This document shows positions 8,806 through 21,234 of a stretch of 64,000 bases of DNA, piece by piece. How positions within the stretch are numbered: position 1 is the stretch's first letter; each line of letters opens with the position of its first letter. A program made the translations under genes and the position numbers. Source of the stretch: Elusimicrobia bacterium RIFCSPLOWO2_02_FULL_39_32 (GTDB lineage: Bacteria; Elusimicrobiota; Elusimicrobia; 2-02-FULL-39-32); NCBI GenBank assembly GCA_001800135.1, contig MGUU01000008.1, positions 62,001 through 126,000 of the forward strand, read 5' to 3'. Under the pieces are notes generated by a model. That model was given only the letters and a program-made list of their open reading frames with translations, had not been told where the DNA came from and searched no databases.

Positions 8806-10014
8806 ATGATAAAATCTCTCTCTGCCAAGAAAGAGTTAGACTTACTCCATAGAATAACCAACATCCTTTCTAGCACCATTGAACTGCCAGAGCTTCTGCA
8901 TAAGATCTCAAAAATGATCGTAGATGTTCTGGGCAGCAATTCTTGCTTAATCTTCCTTTATGACGACCAAAAAGAATATCTTGTCCTTTCTGGCGCGCAT
9001 AACCCTCATTCTGAAACACTTGGCAAGATAAAAATGAAAATGGGAGAAGGCATCACAGGCTGGGTAGCTGAACACAAAGAACCAGTCTCTATTAGTGAAA
9101 AAGCTTATGAAGATCCTAGATTCAAACATTTTCCTTCTTTAAGTGAAGATAAGTTTGAATCGCTTCTCTCACTTCCACTGTTGCTTAAATCCCAGCTGAT
9201 TGGGGTTATTAATTTACAAAATAAAAAACCTCACCATTATAGAGACTCGGAAATTGAGTTGCTTTCCACTATCTCTAAACAGGTAGCTGGATCTATTGAA
9301 AATGCCCGGCTTTATACTCAAACCAAAGCCTGGGCAAAACAGATTGAGACCCTAGCTCAAGTTTCACGATTGGTTGCAGGAAAATCTTATTTAGAGGAGA
9401 TACTGAGATTGATTGTCTCAATTACCGCGCAATCCTTAGGTTTTAAAATATGCTCTTTAATGCTAGTAGATCAAAAGAATGAAGAACTTGCGATCGTGGC
9501 TACTCAATCTCTCTCTGAAGACTATCGAACTAAACCAGCTTTAAAAATTAAAGAGAGCCTTTCTGGTAGGGCTGTGCTTGAAAGAAAGCCTATACTGATC
9601 CATGACATTCATAAAGAACCTGAGTACCAGTATCCGGAAATAGCTCGAGCTGAAGGTTTATGTTCTTTAGTTTCTGTGCCCATGATGGTTAAAGACAAAT
9701 GTATTGGAGTTCTCAATTGTTATACGCCTAAACCTCATCACTTTACAGAAATGGAAACTAAAATGCTCACCTCTGTAGCCCAACAAGCCGCGATTGCCAT
9801 TGAACACACCCGTCTAACACAAGAAGCCCTATCCACAAAAGAGGAGCTGGAAGCAAGGAAACTCATTGAAAAAGCTAAAGGGATTTTAATGAAAGAAAAA
9901 AAATTAACAGAAGAGGATGCTTTTCGGGAAATGAGAAAAACTTCCATGGACAAACGAAAGACTATGAAAGAAATTTCAGAAGCTATTATTCTTTCTTCTG
10001 AAATTAAAAATTAA
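8806..10014 (+). CDS. GAF-GAF-ANTAR putative transcription antiterminator
   Basis: Probable RNA-binding regulator with ligand-sensing domains. 402 residues: GAF domain 1 at about 24-160 (ELLHKISKMIVDVLGSNSC), GAF domain 2 at about 185-330 (EEILRLIVSITAQSLGF), a short coiled linker, then an ANTAR domain at about 343-395 (IEKAKGILM, EEDAFREMRK, KEISEAII). ANTAR domains bind paired RNA hairpins with six-base loops and stop an overlapping terminator from forming. There is no receiver domain or adjacent histidine kinase, so a small molecule or redox signal sensed by the GAF domains is likely. No RNA target is seen beside the gene itself, but the ammonium-channel leader at 16758-16941 has suitable hairpins. 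The domain assignment is firm; the target is inferred. Confidence 0.9.
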   Translation: MIKSLSAKKELDLLHRITNILSSTIELPELLHKISKMIVDVLGSNSCLIFLYDDQKEYLVLSGAHNPHSETLGKIKMKMGEGITGWVAEHKEPVSISEKAYEDPRFKHFPSLSEDKFESLLSLPLLLKSQLIGVINLQNKKPHHYRDSEIELLSTISKQVAGSIENARLYTQTKAWAKQIETLAQVSRLVAGKSYLEEILRLIVSITAQSLGFKICSLMLVDQKNEELAIVATQSLSEDYRTKPALKIKESLSGRAVLERKPILIHDIHKEPEYQYPEIARAEGLCSLVSVPMMVKDKCIGVLNCYTPKPHHFTEMETKMLTSVAQQAAIAIEHTRLTQEALSTKEELEARKLIEKAKGILMKEKKLTEEDAFREMRKTSMDKRKTMKEISEAIILSSEIKN

Positions 10015-16696: not shown

Positions 16697-16725
16697 TTGA
16701 CAACTATTTTTGATTTTATTAATAT
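16697..16725 (+). promoter_or_regulatory. Promoter of the ammonium-channel operon (TTGACA-17-TAATAT)
   Basis: TTGACA at 16697-16702, 17-base spacer, TAATAT at 16720-16725; predicted start at about 16732. It sits about 250 bases ahead of the amt start codon, leaving an unusually long leader for this window. I see no sigma-54 type GG/GC promoter, which many nitrogen genes use elsewhere. Confidence 0.8.
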
Positions 16726-16757
16726 TAGCGCAAGTACAAAGTAGTATTGTTTCTTAA

Positions 16758-16805
16758 AGGACAACGCAGTCCTCAAGGTTCTCTGAATAGAACTAAGAGG
16801 TTTTT
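16758..16805 (+). promoter_or_regulatory. Attenuator 1 of the amt leader: A1/G4 hexaloop hairpin overlapping a terminator
   Basis: Hairpin AGGAC (16758-16762), loop AACGCA, GTCCT (16769-16773). The loop has A at position 1 and G at position 4, as in ANTAR targets. Its 3' arm supplies the CCT of a second, exclusive structure: CCTC (16771-16774) pairs with GAGG (16797-16800) around an inner GGTTCT/AGAACT stem with two A-A mismatches, directly followed by TTTTT (16801-16805). The first hairpin and the terminator cannot form fully at the same time. Confidence 0.65.
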
Positions 16806-16874
16806 ATGCGCAGTGGAAACATTATTCAATCCTGTTTTAACCTAAATCCACTAAAATAAAATTCTCAAAATAAA

Positions 16875-16941
16875 AAATTTGGACAAAGAGGTCCTAAATT
16901 TTAAGGTATGTTTACTTAAAAAATTTAGGACTTTTTATTTT
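16875..16941 (+). promoter_or_regulatory. Attenuator 2 of the amt leader: A1/G4 hexaloop hairpin overlapping a strong terminator
   Basis: Hairpin AAATTTGGAC (16875-16884), loop AAAGAG, GTCC (16891-16894), one bulged T, AAATTT (16896-16901). The closing GGAC/GTCC stem and the A1/G4 loop repeat those of attenuator 1. The 3' arm doubles as the 5' arm of a perfect 12-bp stem, GTCCTAAATTTT (16891-16902) with AAAATTTAGGAC (16920-16931), followed by TTTTTATTTT. This intrinsic terminator ends 34 bases before the amt ATG, so the operon can only be expressed if it is overcome. Confidence 0.75.
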
Positions 16942-16975
16942 ATCTATTCACTAAATAAACAAGGAGGCAGCACAA

Positions 16976-18409
16976 ATGAAAAGCATGTTAAAAAGATTCG
17001 GCAAGAAGCTTTTTATCGCTTTGGGAATTGTTGTGACTTTAATTCCTTTAGCTCTTGCAGAAGGAGAAGGGGTAGCTTTCACTCAGGAATTAGCAGATTC
17101 TATTTCTGGTGGAAAAGTAGCGGCAGATACAGTATGGACCTTAGTTACAGCGATGCTGGTATTTTGGATGAACGCGGGTTTCGGCATGTTGGAAGCTGGC
17201 TTACAACAAGCCAAAAACTGCGTTAATATTTGCTCTAAAAACTTTGTAGTATTTGCCATAGCTTCTTTAGCTTTTTGGGCACTGGGCTGGGGTTTAATGT
17301 TTGGCAATGGCAATGGTTTTATGGGAACTGAAGGTCTCTGGTTTGTAGGCGGAGTAGATAATAGTCCTTTAACAGGTGATGCTTATCAAGGAGCTTATTC
17401 TTCTATTGCTTGGACAGGAGTTCCACTCTGGGCTAAATTTTTCTTTCAATTAGTGTTTGCAGGAACAGCGGCAACCATTGTCTCTGGAGCAGTTGGCGGC
17501 AGAATTATTTTCAACTCCTTTGTGGTTTTCTCCTTTGTTCTAGTTGCGATCATGTACCCTCTTACAGGCCACTGGATTTGGGGCGGCGGATGGTTAGCAA
17601 CCAGAGGATTCTGGGATTTTGCAGGCTCTACTGTTGTGCACTCTGTAGGCGGATGGGCTGCTTTAGCTGGCATCATAGCTCTCGGACCAAGAATTGGAAA
17701 ATATCGCGCAGACGGAAGCGTAAATCCAATTTATGGTCACAACATGGCTCTTGCAACTTTAGGCTGTTTTATCCTTTGGTTAGGCTGGTTTGGTTTTAAT
17801 CCAGGTTCAACCATGGCTGCAGTGCCTGCAGATATTGCTCGCATTTGCGTAACCACAAACTCAGCAGCTGCAGCAGGCACGGTTGCTGCTTATATCACTG
17901 CTTCCATACTTCTTGGCAAACCAGATCTTTCCATGATCTTAAATGGCTGCTTAGCTGGCCTGGTTGCAATCACAGCTCCTTGCGCATGGGTAAGTGTAGG
18001 TTCTTCAGTTGTCATTGGTTTGATTGCTGGAGTACTAGTAGTTTTTGCCGTGCTTTTCTTTGACAAAGTAAAACTAGATGATCCAGTAGGCGCTCTTTCC
18101 GTGCATTTAGTTAATGGAATTTGGGGAACCCTTGCAGTTGGACTTTTTGCATCCGCTCCTTATGCAGGTGGATCAGCGCAACCTCCTTTAGGACTCCTTT
18201 TTGGCGGCGGATTTAAATCCTTTACTGATCAACTTATAGGAGTTGTTGGGGTGGGAGCATTTACCTTTATTATCAGTTTAGTTGTTTGGTATGCAATTAA
18301 AGCAATAATGGGTATTAGAGTTAGCCGCGAAGAAGAAATTAGGGGCTTAGATATTGGCGAGCATGGAATGGAAGCTTATGCAGACTTCCAAATCTTTACA
18401 GCCAAATAA
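16976..18409 (+). CDS. amt: Amt/GlnK-linked ammonium channel
   Basis: Inner-membrane ammonium channel. 477 residues: a cleavable signal-like segment at 1-28 (ending PLALAEGE), then about 11 membrane segments. Family marks are [15 protein letters not shown], the pore histidine in [38 protein letters not shown], and the second pore histidine in [15 protein letters not shown]. The Shine-Dalgarno sequence AAGGAGG at 16961-16967 is strong. It is the first gene of amt-PII-PII-porin. Its leader holds two attenuators, so expression is probably set by transcription antitermination. PII proteins gate such channels according to nitrogen status. Confidence 0.96.
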
Positions 18410-18453: not shown

Positions 18454-18795
18454 ATGAAACTTATAACTGCAATGATTCAACCGGAAAAACTACCGGATGT
18501 TAAAAAAGCATTGTTTGACGCTCAAGTGCACAAAATGACAGTTACCAATGTGGTTGGCGCAGGACAACAAAAAGGTTTTACTGAAAGCTACCGAGGAGCG
18601 ATTGAAGAGATTAACCTTTTAAAAAAAGTTAGAGTTGAGATCGCGGTCAATGATAACTTTGTTCAACCCACGATTGACGCCATTATTAAAGGCGCAAGAA
18701 CCGGAAATATTGGTGATGGAAAAATCATGGTAACAAATATGGAACAATGTATTCGCATTCGCACAGGTGAAACTGGCAGCGCGGCTATTGGTTAA
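18454..18795 (+). CDS. glnK: PII signalling protein (GlnK/GlnB type)
   Basis: Small trimeric nitrogen sensor that binds ATP/ADP and 2-oxoglutarate and gates Amt. 113 residues. The T-loop is full length ([26 protein letters not shown]), the B-loop ATP motif is TGNIGDGKI, and the C-terminal signature is RIRTGETG. The tyrosine that is uridylylated in enteric GlnB (Tyr51, in YRGAEY) is Glu here, although the preceding tyrosine is kept; control by uridylylation is therefore unlikely, and ligand binding alone is expected. It has a strong AAGGAGG site 44 bases after amt. Confidence 0.93.
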
Positions 18796-18959: not shown

Positions 18960-19277
18960 ATGAAAAAAATCGAATGTATCTTACGCGAAGAAAAACTGAA
19001 AACCGCGATTGATTCATTGCTTTTAGCAGGTGTGCCGGGTGTGACTGTAACTAAAGTCCAAGGTTTTGGCAGGCAAAGAGTTACTCCAGAACCTATTTTA
19101 AAGCCAAAGGTAAAAATTGAAATCTACCTAGAAGATAACGAGGTGGACACGATTGCTAAAACACTCATTCTTGCAGGTAGAACTGGTAAAAATGGGGATG
19201 GAAAAATCGCAGTTGTAGAAGTAGATGATTTGGTTCGAATTCGAACTGAGGAAAGAGATAAAGAAGCGCTCTATTAA
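18960..19277 (+). CDS. Divergent PII protein with a shortened T-loop
   Basis: A second PII-family protein, 105 residues. It keeps the nucleotide-binding parts: QGFGRQ after the second strand, the B-loop TGKNGDGKIAV, and the C-terminal VRIRTEERDKEAL. The T-loop is cut to about VTPEPILKPK, roughly seven or eight residues shorter than in GlnB/GlnK, with no KGHTELYRGAE-like stretch and no modifiable tyrosine. The T-loop is the part that enters Amt and contacts other partners, so this protein probably has a different partner or modulates the first PII, perhaps through mixed trimers. The start has only a weak purine-rich AGGAAAC stretch ahead of it. Confidence 0.88.
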   Translation: MKKIECILREEKLKTAIDSLLLAGVPGVTVTKVQGFGRQRVTPEPILKPKVKIEIYLEDNEVDTIAKTLILAGRTGKNGDGKIAVVEVDDLVRIRTEERDKEALY

Positions 19278-19314: not shown

Positions 19315-20475
19315 ATGAAAAAGACAATTGTAAAAACTGCAAAGTTGTGGGCTTTCATCGCAGCCATGCTCAGCACAACCGCAATCTATGCAGAAATGCC
19401 TAAACCAACCATTAGTGGATTCATTGATACCACCTACAACTATGATTTTAACAAACCTGTAGGGCGTGTCACTACAAATCGCTCGTTTGATCGCAGGACC
19501 GATTCTTTTCTTTTAAACGCAATTCAGGTGAATATATCTGGAAATGGCGAAGAAGGAATTGGTTACTATGGAGAACTAGCTTTTGGAACTGATCCTTCCA
19601 ATTATAAATCTGCTGGAACTAATAATCCTGCAGAAGCCGTAAACTCGAATGTTGCCTATAACTTTGATATTCAGGAAGCCTTCCTTACCTACAAATGTCC
19701 AAATACCGGTATTCAGTTAAAAGCTGGTAAATTTGTGACTCTTCAAGGGATCGAAGTCATTGAGTCAAAGGACAACTTTACAATTTCTAGAGGAATAGTT
19801 TTCGGACTATTAGAACCTTTTACTCATGTTGGTGGCTTAGTAGGCTATCAATTCCCTCAAATCATAGATCTCTGGGTGGGAGCAGTTAATGGATGGGACT
19901 TACATGTGGACAACAACACTGGGAAGACATTACTTGCTAAAATGGGAATTAATTTTGGCGAAAAAGCATTCGGCGCAGTATCATTATCATACGGATCTGA
20001 ACAAGCCAATACCAATAACACAAGGACAAGTTTTGATACGACTTGGTTCCTAAAACCTATGGATAAAACCACAATTGGGTTACAGTTCAACGCGGGGCAA
20101 GAAAAAAATACCGCGGTCATTGATGCAAATTTGGATGGAGTGGAAGATAATCCAGTTACATCACGTCCCACCGCGCATTGGTATGGAGCAAGCATTCAAC
20201 CCAAATATGATCTTACAGAAAAATTATCAATTGGCGCTCGCTATGAATGGTTGCAGGATTTAGGAAATGCAAGAGCAGGCACTGATACTGGTTTTAATGG
20301 ACAAACCCTTCAAACCGCATCTGTTGCGCCAGCTTATAACTTAACAGAATCACTGATGTTTAGAACTGAATACCGTCATGATTGGGGTTCTAGACTTCAA
20401 TTTATAGATGATGTTCTAGCAGTATCAAAATCAGCAGTTAGCACAGTTCACGCTGAATTCATCTACAAGTTCTAA
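19315..20475 (+). CDS. Outer-membrane beta-barrel porin (OmpL/bbp2-like)
   Basis: 386 residues. A cleavable signal peptide ends at about residue 26 (ATTAIYA|EMP). The mature protein opens with ISGFIDTTYNYDFN and consists of alternating polar/apolar strands ending in a C-terminal Phe (AEFIYKF), as in outer-membrane barrels; the pattern resembles the beta-barrel porin-2 family. Position as last gene after amt and two PII genes suggests it admits ammonium or another small nitrogen compound through the outer membrane, though nothing in the sequence shows selectivity. It has a strong AAGGAGGAAGG site and a strong terminator follows. Confidence 0.85.
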   Translation: MKKTIVKTAKLWAFIAAMLSTTAIYAEMPKPTISGFIDTTYNYDFNKPVGRVTTNRSFDRRTDSFLLNAIQVNISGNGEEGIGYYGELAFGTDPSNYKSAGTNNPAEAVNSNVAYNFDIQEAFLTYKCPNTGIQLKAGKFVTLQGIEVIESKDNFTISRGIVFGLLEPFTHVGGLVGYQFPQIIDLWVGAVNGWDLHVDNNTGKTLLAKMGINFGEKAFGAVSLSYGSEQANTNNTRTSFDTTWFLKPMDKTTIGLQFNAGQEKNTAVIDANLDGVEDNPVTSRPTAHWYGASIQPKYDLTEKLSIGARYEWLQDLGNARAGTDTGFNGQTLQTASVAPAYNLTESLMFRTEYRHDWGSRLQFIDDVLAVSKSAVSTVHAEFIYKF

Positions 20476-20663: not shown

Positions 20664-20936
20664 ATGTGGCAGATCAGGGAACATCGCAAGATTGCAAAAA
20701 CCCTTCGCAAGGCGTCCCCATGGATCATCAAAGAATATGAGACTTGGAAGGATTTGGTTTACTGCCATGGTCCTGAAATTCTCAAACAGTTTTCAGGTTA
20801 CCATGATGAAAAATTAAAAGGTAAGAGGGATTGGCAACGATCTTCACGGCTAAGTTTAAAATACCGCGTAATCTACTCTATAGATCGAGGCGCCATCACG
20901 GTCTATGTATTAGAAATTACGCCCCATGATTATTAA
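20664..20936 (+). CDS. RelE/HigB-family toxin
   Basis: 90 residues, the size of RelE/ParE-superfamily ribosome-dependent mRNA interferases. The C-terminal half has the family pattern: HDEKLKG, SLKYRVIYSID and a terminal VLEITPHDY. The gene comes first and the Xre-type DNA-binding gene second, which is the HigB-HigA order. The start abuts a promoter repeat and lacks a Shine-Dalgarno site, so translation would be leaderless. The fold class is likely; the target and activity are inferred. Confidence 0.8.
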   Translation: MWQIREHRKIAKTLRKASPWIIKEYETWKDLVYCHGPEILKQFSGYHDEKLKGKRDWQRSSRLSLKYRVIYSIDRGAITVYVLEITPHDY

Positions 20937-20958
20937 ATAAGTTAAAGGAGGTTTATCA

Positions 20959-21234
20959 ATGCGGATAGATCATAAAAATTTTGTATCTGCTAAAACACAT
21001 ATCTATAGAACTACGGGAGAAGTCATTAAGATTCTTAGACAAAAAAAAGGATGGACTCAAATCTATCTTGCAAAGCAGTCTCACATCTCTGCCACAAACT
21101 TAAGTATGTTAGAAAATGATCGTATTGATATTGGTAAAAAAAGAGCTGAACAATTAGCTAAGGCTTTTGGAGTACATCCAGCTATTATTATGTTTCCTGA
21201 ATATGAGTTTCATGAAATTAGCCGAGCTGCATAA
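20959..21234 (+). CDS. HigA-like Xre-family antitoxin
   Basis: 91 residues. A helix-turn-helix of the Xre/Cro type lies at about residues 22-75 (TGEVIKILRQKKGWTQIYLAKQSHISATNLSMLENDR, then KRAEQLAKAFGV). It has a strong AAAGGAGG site, in contrast to the toxin gene, so more antitoxin than toxin should be made. It follows the toxin gene by 22 bases and probably represses the shared promoter through the paired 15-bp repeats. Confidence 0.85.
   Translation: MRIDHKNFVSAKTHIYRTTGEVIKILRQKKGWTQIYLAKQSHISATNLSMLENDRIDIGKKRAEQLAKAFGVHPAIIMFPEYEFHEISRAA

Follow-up and report, generated by a model that had tools for sequence, protein, structure and literature searches.

Antitermination by EutV at the Enterococcus faecalis eutP leader requires two hairpins, P1 and P2 (PMC3369931, PMC8934654). 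Each EutV dimer engages a single hexaloop, and single hexaloops are bound about equally well (Walshe et al., PMC8934654). The structure poses a puzzle: why are two hairpins needed if the dimer grips only one hexaloop at once? One proposal is that P1 serves as a recruitment hairpin (Walshe et al., PMC8934654). In many bacteria, ANTAR elements precede ammonium-transporter, P-II, and glutamine-synthase-type genes (Ramesh et al., PMC3369931).

Here we describe an ammonium channel (amt) leader from the Elusimicrobiota that bears on this puzzle. Its likely organization is a serial two-gate ANTAR attenuator, in which a dual-hairpin gate (P1-P2-T1) is followed by a single-hairpin gate (P3-T2), both opened by a GAF-GAF-ANTAR protein.

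Locus and Transcription Unit

The window analyzed, a stretch of 64,000 nucleotides (G000:C8:62001-126000), is part of a 2.52-Mb genome in 27 contigs. Judged by amt, the closest named relative is an Elusimicrobia groundwater MAG, whose Amt protein is 97% identical. The controlled unit is headed by amt, encoding a 477-aa ammonium channel (16976..18409, + strand; PF00909, 9.2e-117). Two P-II genes follow on the same strand, the first of GlnK/GlnB type (18454..18795; PF00543, 1.7e-27) and the second at 18960..19277 (PF00543, 8e-22); both probably are co-transcribed with amt. The adjoining gene for a BBP2-type beta-barrel porin (19315..20475, + strand; PF07642, 2.5e-61) possibly belongs to the unit as well. 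Beyond it, at 20664-21234, neighboring small genes resemble by eye a RelE/HigB-type toxin and an XRE-type antitoxin.

A sigma-70-type promoter, TTGACA-17-TAATAT (16697..16725, + strand), has 10 of 12 consensus matches and a predicted transcription start at about 16732, which puts P1 at approximately +1. The promoter position is a prediction, since the pattern scan returned three sites versus 2.3 expected in shuffled sequences. Searches of Rfam at both gathering and loose thresholds matched neither the window leader nor the clostridial leaders described below to any family. A generic terminator scan of the leader region was negative as well, probably because terminators such as T1 and T2 fall outside the loop sizes and stem compositions that it allows.

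A Canonical First Gate

Gate 1 is, in its predicted anatomy, a canonical ANTAR dual-hexaloop element. Hairpins P1, AGTAC[AAAGTA]GTATT (16733..16748, + strand), and P2, AGGAC[AACGCA]GTCCT (16758..16773, + strand; -6.3 kcal/mol), are adjacent, with stems of at least 3 bp and six-base loops (in brackets) that carry A at position 1 (A1) and G at position 4 (G4). The 9-nt linker between them is inside the 5-12 range of the E. faecalis eut leaders (PMC3369931). Terminator T1, CCTC..GGTTCT/AGAACT..GAGG followed by TTTTT (16771..16805, + strand; -11.1 kcal/mol), occupies 16771-16800 with a U-tract running to 16805. It overlaps P2 by three bases, 16771-16773, and the two structures therefore are mutually exclusive. 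The remaining hallmarks, stem covariation and a genome-encoded ANTAR protein, are present also.

An earlier note on this DNA had described two hairpins with a common GGAC/GTCC stem and the A1/G4 loops AACGCA and AAAGAG (P2 and P3 in our nomenclature), along with intrinsic terminators ending at 16805 and 16941. All of these are where it placed them, position 16941 falling within the T2 U-tract. It further assigned one hairpin to each gate, about 115 bases apart. That description fits gate 2 but not gate 1, where P1, nine bases before P2, had been missed. Similarly, the idea that each hairpin contributes its 3' arm to a terminator is correct for the whole GTCC arm of P3, whereas P2 contributes only three bases.

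Covariance model R1 was built from 13 dual-hairpin elements. It matches P1 together with P2 at E = 9.1e-6 for the genome, the sequence itself being in the model. Within the 13 elements, the P1 stem is 100% paired, with both-side changes at three pairs. For the dual stems overall, both-side changes occur in six of nine pairs, yielding 14 double-change cells versus 4.5 in shuffled alignments (0/500 as high). The stem covariation that the earlier note had asked for among orthologous leaders is clear for the dual stems and, as described below, modest for P3.

The motif also is rare. The sequence GGACANNGNNGTCC has only three copies in the 2.52-Mb genome: two in the amt leader, and one in an apparent rpoB gene on the opposite strand. 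At E <= 1, R1 finds only two sites in this genome, both preceding amt genes and both in the training set. The second site, on contig C16, comprises GTTCATAC[AATGGC]GTATGAAC and CGAAC[ATAGGC]GTTCG; the second amt gene accordingly has a canonical one-gate ANTAR leader (L030; G000:C16:70653-70693), so the ANTAR regulon in this genome seems to consist of the two amt units. We give almost no credence to the notion that both hairpins are coincidences within AT-rich terminators. Scans of the region for promoter-like and terminator-like patterns are indeed no better than shuffles, but the rarity of the motif genome-wide, the covariance-model E-values, the covariation, and the conservation in other families of the class all stand against chance, which for gate 1 is refuted in practice.

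Searching related genomes by structure, as the earlier note had proposed, recovered elements before both amt and glnA. Outside the training set, R1 matches lie upstream of glnA (G022) and of a NifA-like gene (G036) and, in another class, before a porin-amt pair (G078). Weaker matches in other classes precede two genes that each have glnA next in line: one in G062, and a GAF-ANTAR gene in G085. The G036 element (L121; G036:C333:10005) is a dual element, and its position before a NifA-like gene (GAF plus AAA+) suggests ANTAR control of nitrogen fixation. The G085 locus (L166; G085:C81:100378) has three A1/G4 hexaloops upstream of the GAF-ANTAR gene and then glnA, an arrangement that suggests autoregulation of the GAF-ANTAR gene. 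A weak match (E = 0.22) precedes a porin gene of sister genome G001. There (L139; G001:C18:597553), a third hexaloop, AGAC[AAAGAA]GTCT, comes after the dual element, with no second terminator clearly recognizable; this perhaps is a second gate decaying or forming. Weak matches in the Endomicrobia-like genomes G177, G196, and G271 overlap the starts of pilin-like genes and were set aside, since several chance matches are expected at this threshold among 235 genomes.

A Probable Second Gate with a Single Hexaloop

In the window leader, approximately 75 bases separate T1 from the second gate. This stretch includes a helix, AGTGGA (16812-16817)/TCCACT (16847-16852), spanning 16812..16852 on the + strand; leaders in G008 and G003 also have a helix here. 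As a conjecture, it might act as a spacer and bring gate 2 closer to gate 1. Hairpin P3, GGAC[AAAGAG]GTCC (16881..16894, + strand; -5.1 kcal/mol), again has an A1/G4 hexaloop. Terminator T2 pairs GTCCTAAATTTT (16891-16902) with AAAATTTAGGAC (16920-16931), and its U-tract begins at 16932 (16891..16939 in all, + strand; -16.2 kcal/mol); none of 200 shuffled sequences was as stable. T2 contains the entire GTCC arm of P3, making P3 and T2 mutually exclusive. Both terminators are predicted to be more stable than the competing hairpins (-11.1 and -16.2 kcal/mol for T1 and T2, versus -6.3 and -5.1 for P2 and P3), so termination should be the default.

P3 stands by itself. The interval 16806-16880 holds no A1/G4 hairpin with a stem of at least 3 bp that could be its partner, even when relaxed stems are tried. 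P2 is 107 nt away; for comparison, a linker 20 nt longer abolishes antitermination in E. faecalis eutP (PMC8934654). Gate 2 therefore is not classed as a dual-hexaloop element. What it has instead is a terminal A1/G4 hexaloop whose 3' arm forms the base of the terminator. A second promoter between the gates was considered as an explanation for gate 2, and the promoter scan gave no site there.

The order P1-P2-T1, then a single hexaloop with T2, is repeated before amt in relatives with Amt identities of only 36-84%. All nine genomes of the order were examined; in seven of them an ANTAR leader precedes amt, each time with the extra gate. The arrangement is found also in three genomes from other families of the class (G022, G033, and G028), although the G028 copy stands before a gene other than amt. 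The second terminator carries a single hexaloop with G4 and with A or G at position 1 in G001, G003, G004, G005, G006, G008, G022, G033, and G028. The P3 loops are AAAGAG, AAAGAA, AAAGAT, AACGAA, GATGAA, AAAGGC, AACGGC, AAAGCA, and GACGCG: G4 is present in all nine and A1 in seven, with G at position 1 in G004 and G028. The P3 stems vary among leaders (GGAC, AGGC, GAGAC, GGGAC), and the surrounding sequence is otherwise unconserved. By itself, the P3 stem covariation is modest: in ten sequences, three of five positions show double changes, and 33 of 500 shuffles have as many double-change cells. Only G008 has a candidate P3 partner, GGA[AGAGTA]TCC, with a 3-bp A1/G4 structure; most relatives lack one. 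The distance from T1 to P3 ranges from 5 to 75 bases, so fixed spacing is not conserved, and the separation of only five bases in G004 leads us to read the gates as serial. With both gates of the Elusimicrobiota amt leaders taken together, terminator-overlapping hexaloops are of the A1/G4 type in 15 of 20 cases. Loops of five or eight bases in the same position never are, and loops of seven are in two of four.

Might gate 1 be the only ANTAR element? T2 then would be an ordinary second terminator or an unregulated attenuator, and P3 a relic of an earlier dual element or a chance hairpin at the T2 base. P3 does lack a P1 partner, the EutV rule is two hairpins (PMC3369931), and gate 1 is used alone in the amt2 leader of the window genome and in several relatives. 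Nevertheless, we regard this explanation as unlikely. A single A1/G4 hexaloop is retained on T2 despite differing stems and unconserved surroundings, and shuffling mostly puts the chance of such a hairpin on T2 at a few percent per leader (p, 0.002-0.15; G006, with a bulged P3 stem, was not scored as a match). Moreover, a strong unregulated T2 would block amt expression even with gate 1 open, and terminators of the P1-less A1/G4 type are usual before amt in sampled clostridia, as described in the next section.

Another alternative is that gate 2 is opened by some other factor (a ribosome on a leader peptide, another protein, or a metabolite), and that the ANTAR fit of the hexaloop is accidental. 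The host is uncultured, and such leaders can carry other controls, as an extra anti-Shine-Dalgarno hairpin in G008 and G007 illustrates. This hairpin, GGTAACCTCCTTGTTTACC, lies upstream of amt (L005 and L006, respectively; reverse complement of the locus, approximately 1400-1500). Its complementarity to the Shine-Dalgarno region (GGAGGTTACC or AACAAGGAGGT) is perfect for 10-11 bases and suggests an extra translational switch for amt in these two genomes. However, conservation of G4, and mostly of A1, in the gate 2 loop fits ANTAR recognition rather than translation or ligand sensing, and the window matches no Rfam family; we therefore rate an unrelated factor as highly improbable. The loop rules and their conservation suggest instead that gate 2 would depend upon the ANTAR protein. 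Two ANTAR gates in series, as the earlier note had suggested, thus are well supported by the stem covariation, the class-wide conservation, and the single ANTAR gene in the genome.

Single-Hexaloop Terminators in Clostridia

A protein search led to Bacillota amt leaders, and there too lone A1/G4 hexaloops lie on terminators. The sample comprises 30 clostridial amt leaders from relatives of Anaerosporobacter. Hexaloops that overlap the terminator and have stems of at least 4 bp are A1/G4 in 15 of 15 cases, where 1/16 would be expected if the positions were free. Terminator-overlapping loops of five, seven, or eight bases show no such bias. Among 24 hand-collected elements, G4 is invariant and A1 is present in 22; this loop conservation is partly by construction, because a terminator-borne G4 hexaloop was the basis for choosing the elements. 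Free of that selection are the 15-of-15 result, the stem covariation past the innermost pairs, and the absence of P1. Covariation is strong (43 double-change cells versus 14.2 in shuffled alignments, 0/500 as high; 24 elements), and none of the 24 elements has a P1 candidate within 40 bases of the hexaloop. Indeed, where a promoter was called, most hairpins begin 7-13 bases past the predicted start, so most such leaders leave no room for P1.

ANTAR proteins accompany amt in these clostridia. In the clostridial set of 61 genomes, they are encoded by 34 of 35 genomes with amt versus 11 of 26 without (p = 1.4e-6). NitR is a clostridial glnA antiterminator. Three clostridial amt leaders (L171, L187, and L195) have two single-hexaloop terminators in series upstream of amt, so serial gating probably arose more than once.

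Judged by these leaders, the amt genes of the sampled clostridial genomes usually are preceded by P1-less A1/G4 terminators. On balance, we favor the view that ANTAR attenuators with a single hexaloop and no P1 form a real functional class of wide distribution, encompassing the clostridial amt leaders and the second gate in the Elusimicrobiota. The need for two hairpins, established with EutV, then would be specific to some systems.

The ANTAR Protein

The GAF-GAF-ANTAR regulator (8806..10014, + strand; PF03861, 5.2e-20) is proposed to bind P1, P2, and P3; the genome search turned up no other ANTAR protein. The earlier note had named it the candidate binder. This assignment is well supported by its being the sole ANTAR gene and by linkage: the ANTAR gene lies within approximately 2-8 kb of amt or of an ANTAR element in G000, G001, G004, G006, G010, G033, and G036. 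Eight of 11 EutV contact residues are identical in the window protein (R142, K143, K147, K149, E160, R168, M172, and R175); the others are altered (Y164 to F, N173 to D, and R177 to T). These contacts were assigned by hand from the 6WSH alignment, with the offset inferred. Phenylalanine in place of Tyr164 is aromatic, so stacking on G4 could still be possible.

Elements and ANTAR genes also co-occur. At E < 0.01, R1 matches 11 of 60 relatives: 10 of 22 with an ANTAR gene versus one of 38 without (Fisher p = 7e-5, a test not independent of training, because many matched sequences built the model). The sole ANTAR-less relative matched at this threshold is an 80%-complete MAG, and many of the relatives are incomplete MAGs. 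In G005, an 80%-complete MAG, the leader is present and the ANTAR gene was not found; G007 has an ANTAR gene, and an amt gene without such a leader.

Proposed Mechanism and Implications

By default, RNA polymerase would halt at T1, and polymerases that leak past it would halt at T2. The active GAF-GAF-ANTAR protein, presumably responding to nitrogen shortage, would bind the hexaloops of the nascent RNA. At gate 1, following the EutV proposal, P1 would act as the recruitment hairpin and P2 as the antiterminator. At gate 2, the protein would hold the lone P3, the 3' arm of which otherwise forms the base of T2. With T1 and T2 both prevented, transcription would proceed into amt and both P-II genes, and perhaps into the porin gene. 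Serial gates should reduce basal leakage and give a steeper response to active protein. With P1 as a recruitment hairpin, the protein would be loaded at gate 1, and gate 2 would either use protein already bound to that RNA or need no P1. The clostridial P1-less leaders favor the latter reading, for at least some ANTAR proteins.

Dual-hairpin and single-hairpin gates on one RNA, with one ANTAR protein per cell, provide a natural within-molecule test. The window leader could show whether P1 serves for recruitment and is required at the first gate alone, and the clostridial leaders bring the single-hexaloop question to culturable bacteria. Because the dual-hairpin models used to date would miss single-hexaloop elements, ANTAR regulons probably have been under-counted.

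Comparison with Known Systems

Desulfotomaculum acetoxidans also has ANTAR elements before nitrogen genes, and its 13 elements outnumber its six transcription units (PMC3369931). Tandem ANTAR elements per se thus look already implied rather than new. Those elements were found with a dual-hairpin model (PMC3369931). Our literature search met no report of terminator-coupled single-hexaloop ANTAR elements; most subscription papers were outside its reach, and an earlier description is possible.

The NasR-nasF (Klebsiella oxytoca) and AmiR-amiE (Pseudomonas aeruginosa) systems likewise control nitrogen genes through A1/G4 hexaloops that overlap a terminator. Unlike the window leader, each has one dual element and one terminator. 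In work on EutV binding to single hexaloops in vitro and on the EutX sRNA with its extra hexaloop (PMC8934654), a single hexaloop is enough for ANTAR binding; that study describes no single-hexaloop terminator, and its authors called for bioinformatic analysis of single hexaloops.

The closest likeness to gate 1 is in the E. faecalis EutV/EutVW leaders (eutP, eutG, eutS, and eutA): two short-stem A1/G4 hexaloops, with P2 on an intrinsic terminator. The 9-nt linker and the mostly conserved ANTAR contacts extend this resemblance. Unlike these leaders, that of the window adds a serial second terminator with a single hexaloop; in addition, its sensor is GAF-GAF rather than a receiver domain, and its target is amt. 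The predicted mechanism, ANTAR attenuation, therefore is a known one, and what is new is a dual gate followed by a putative gate without P1.
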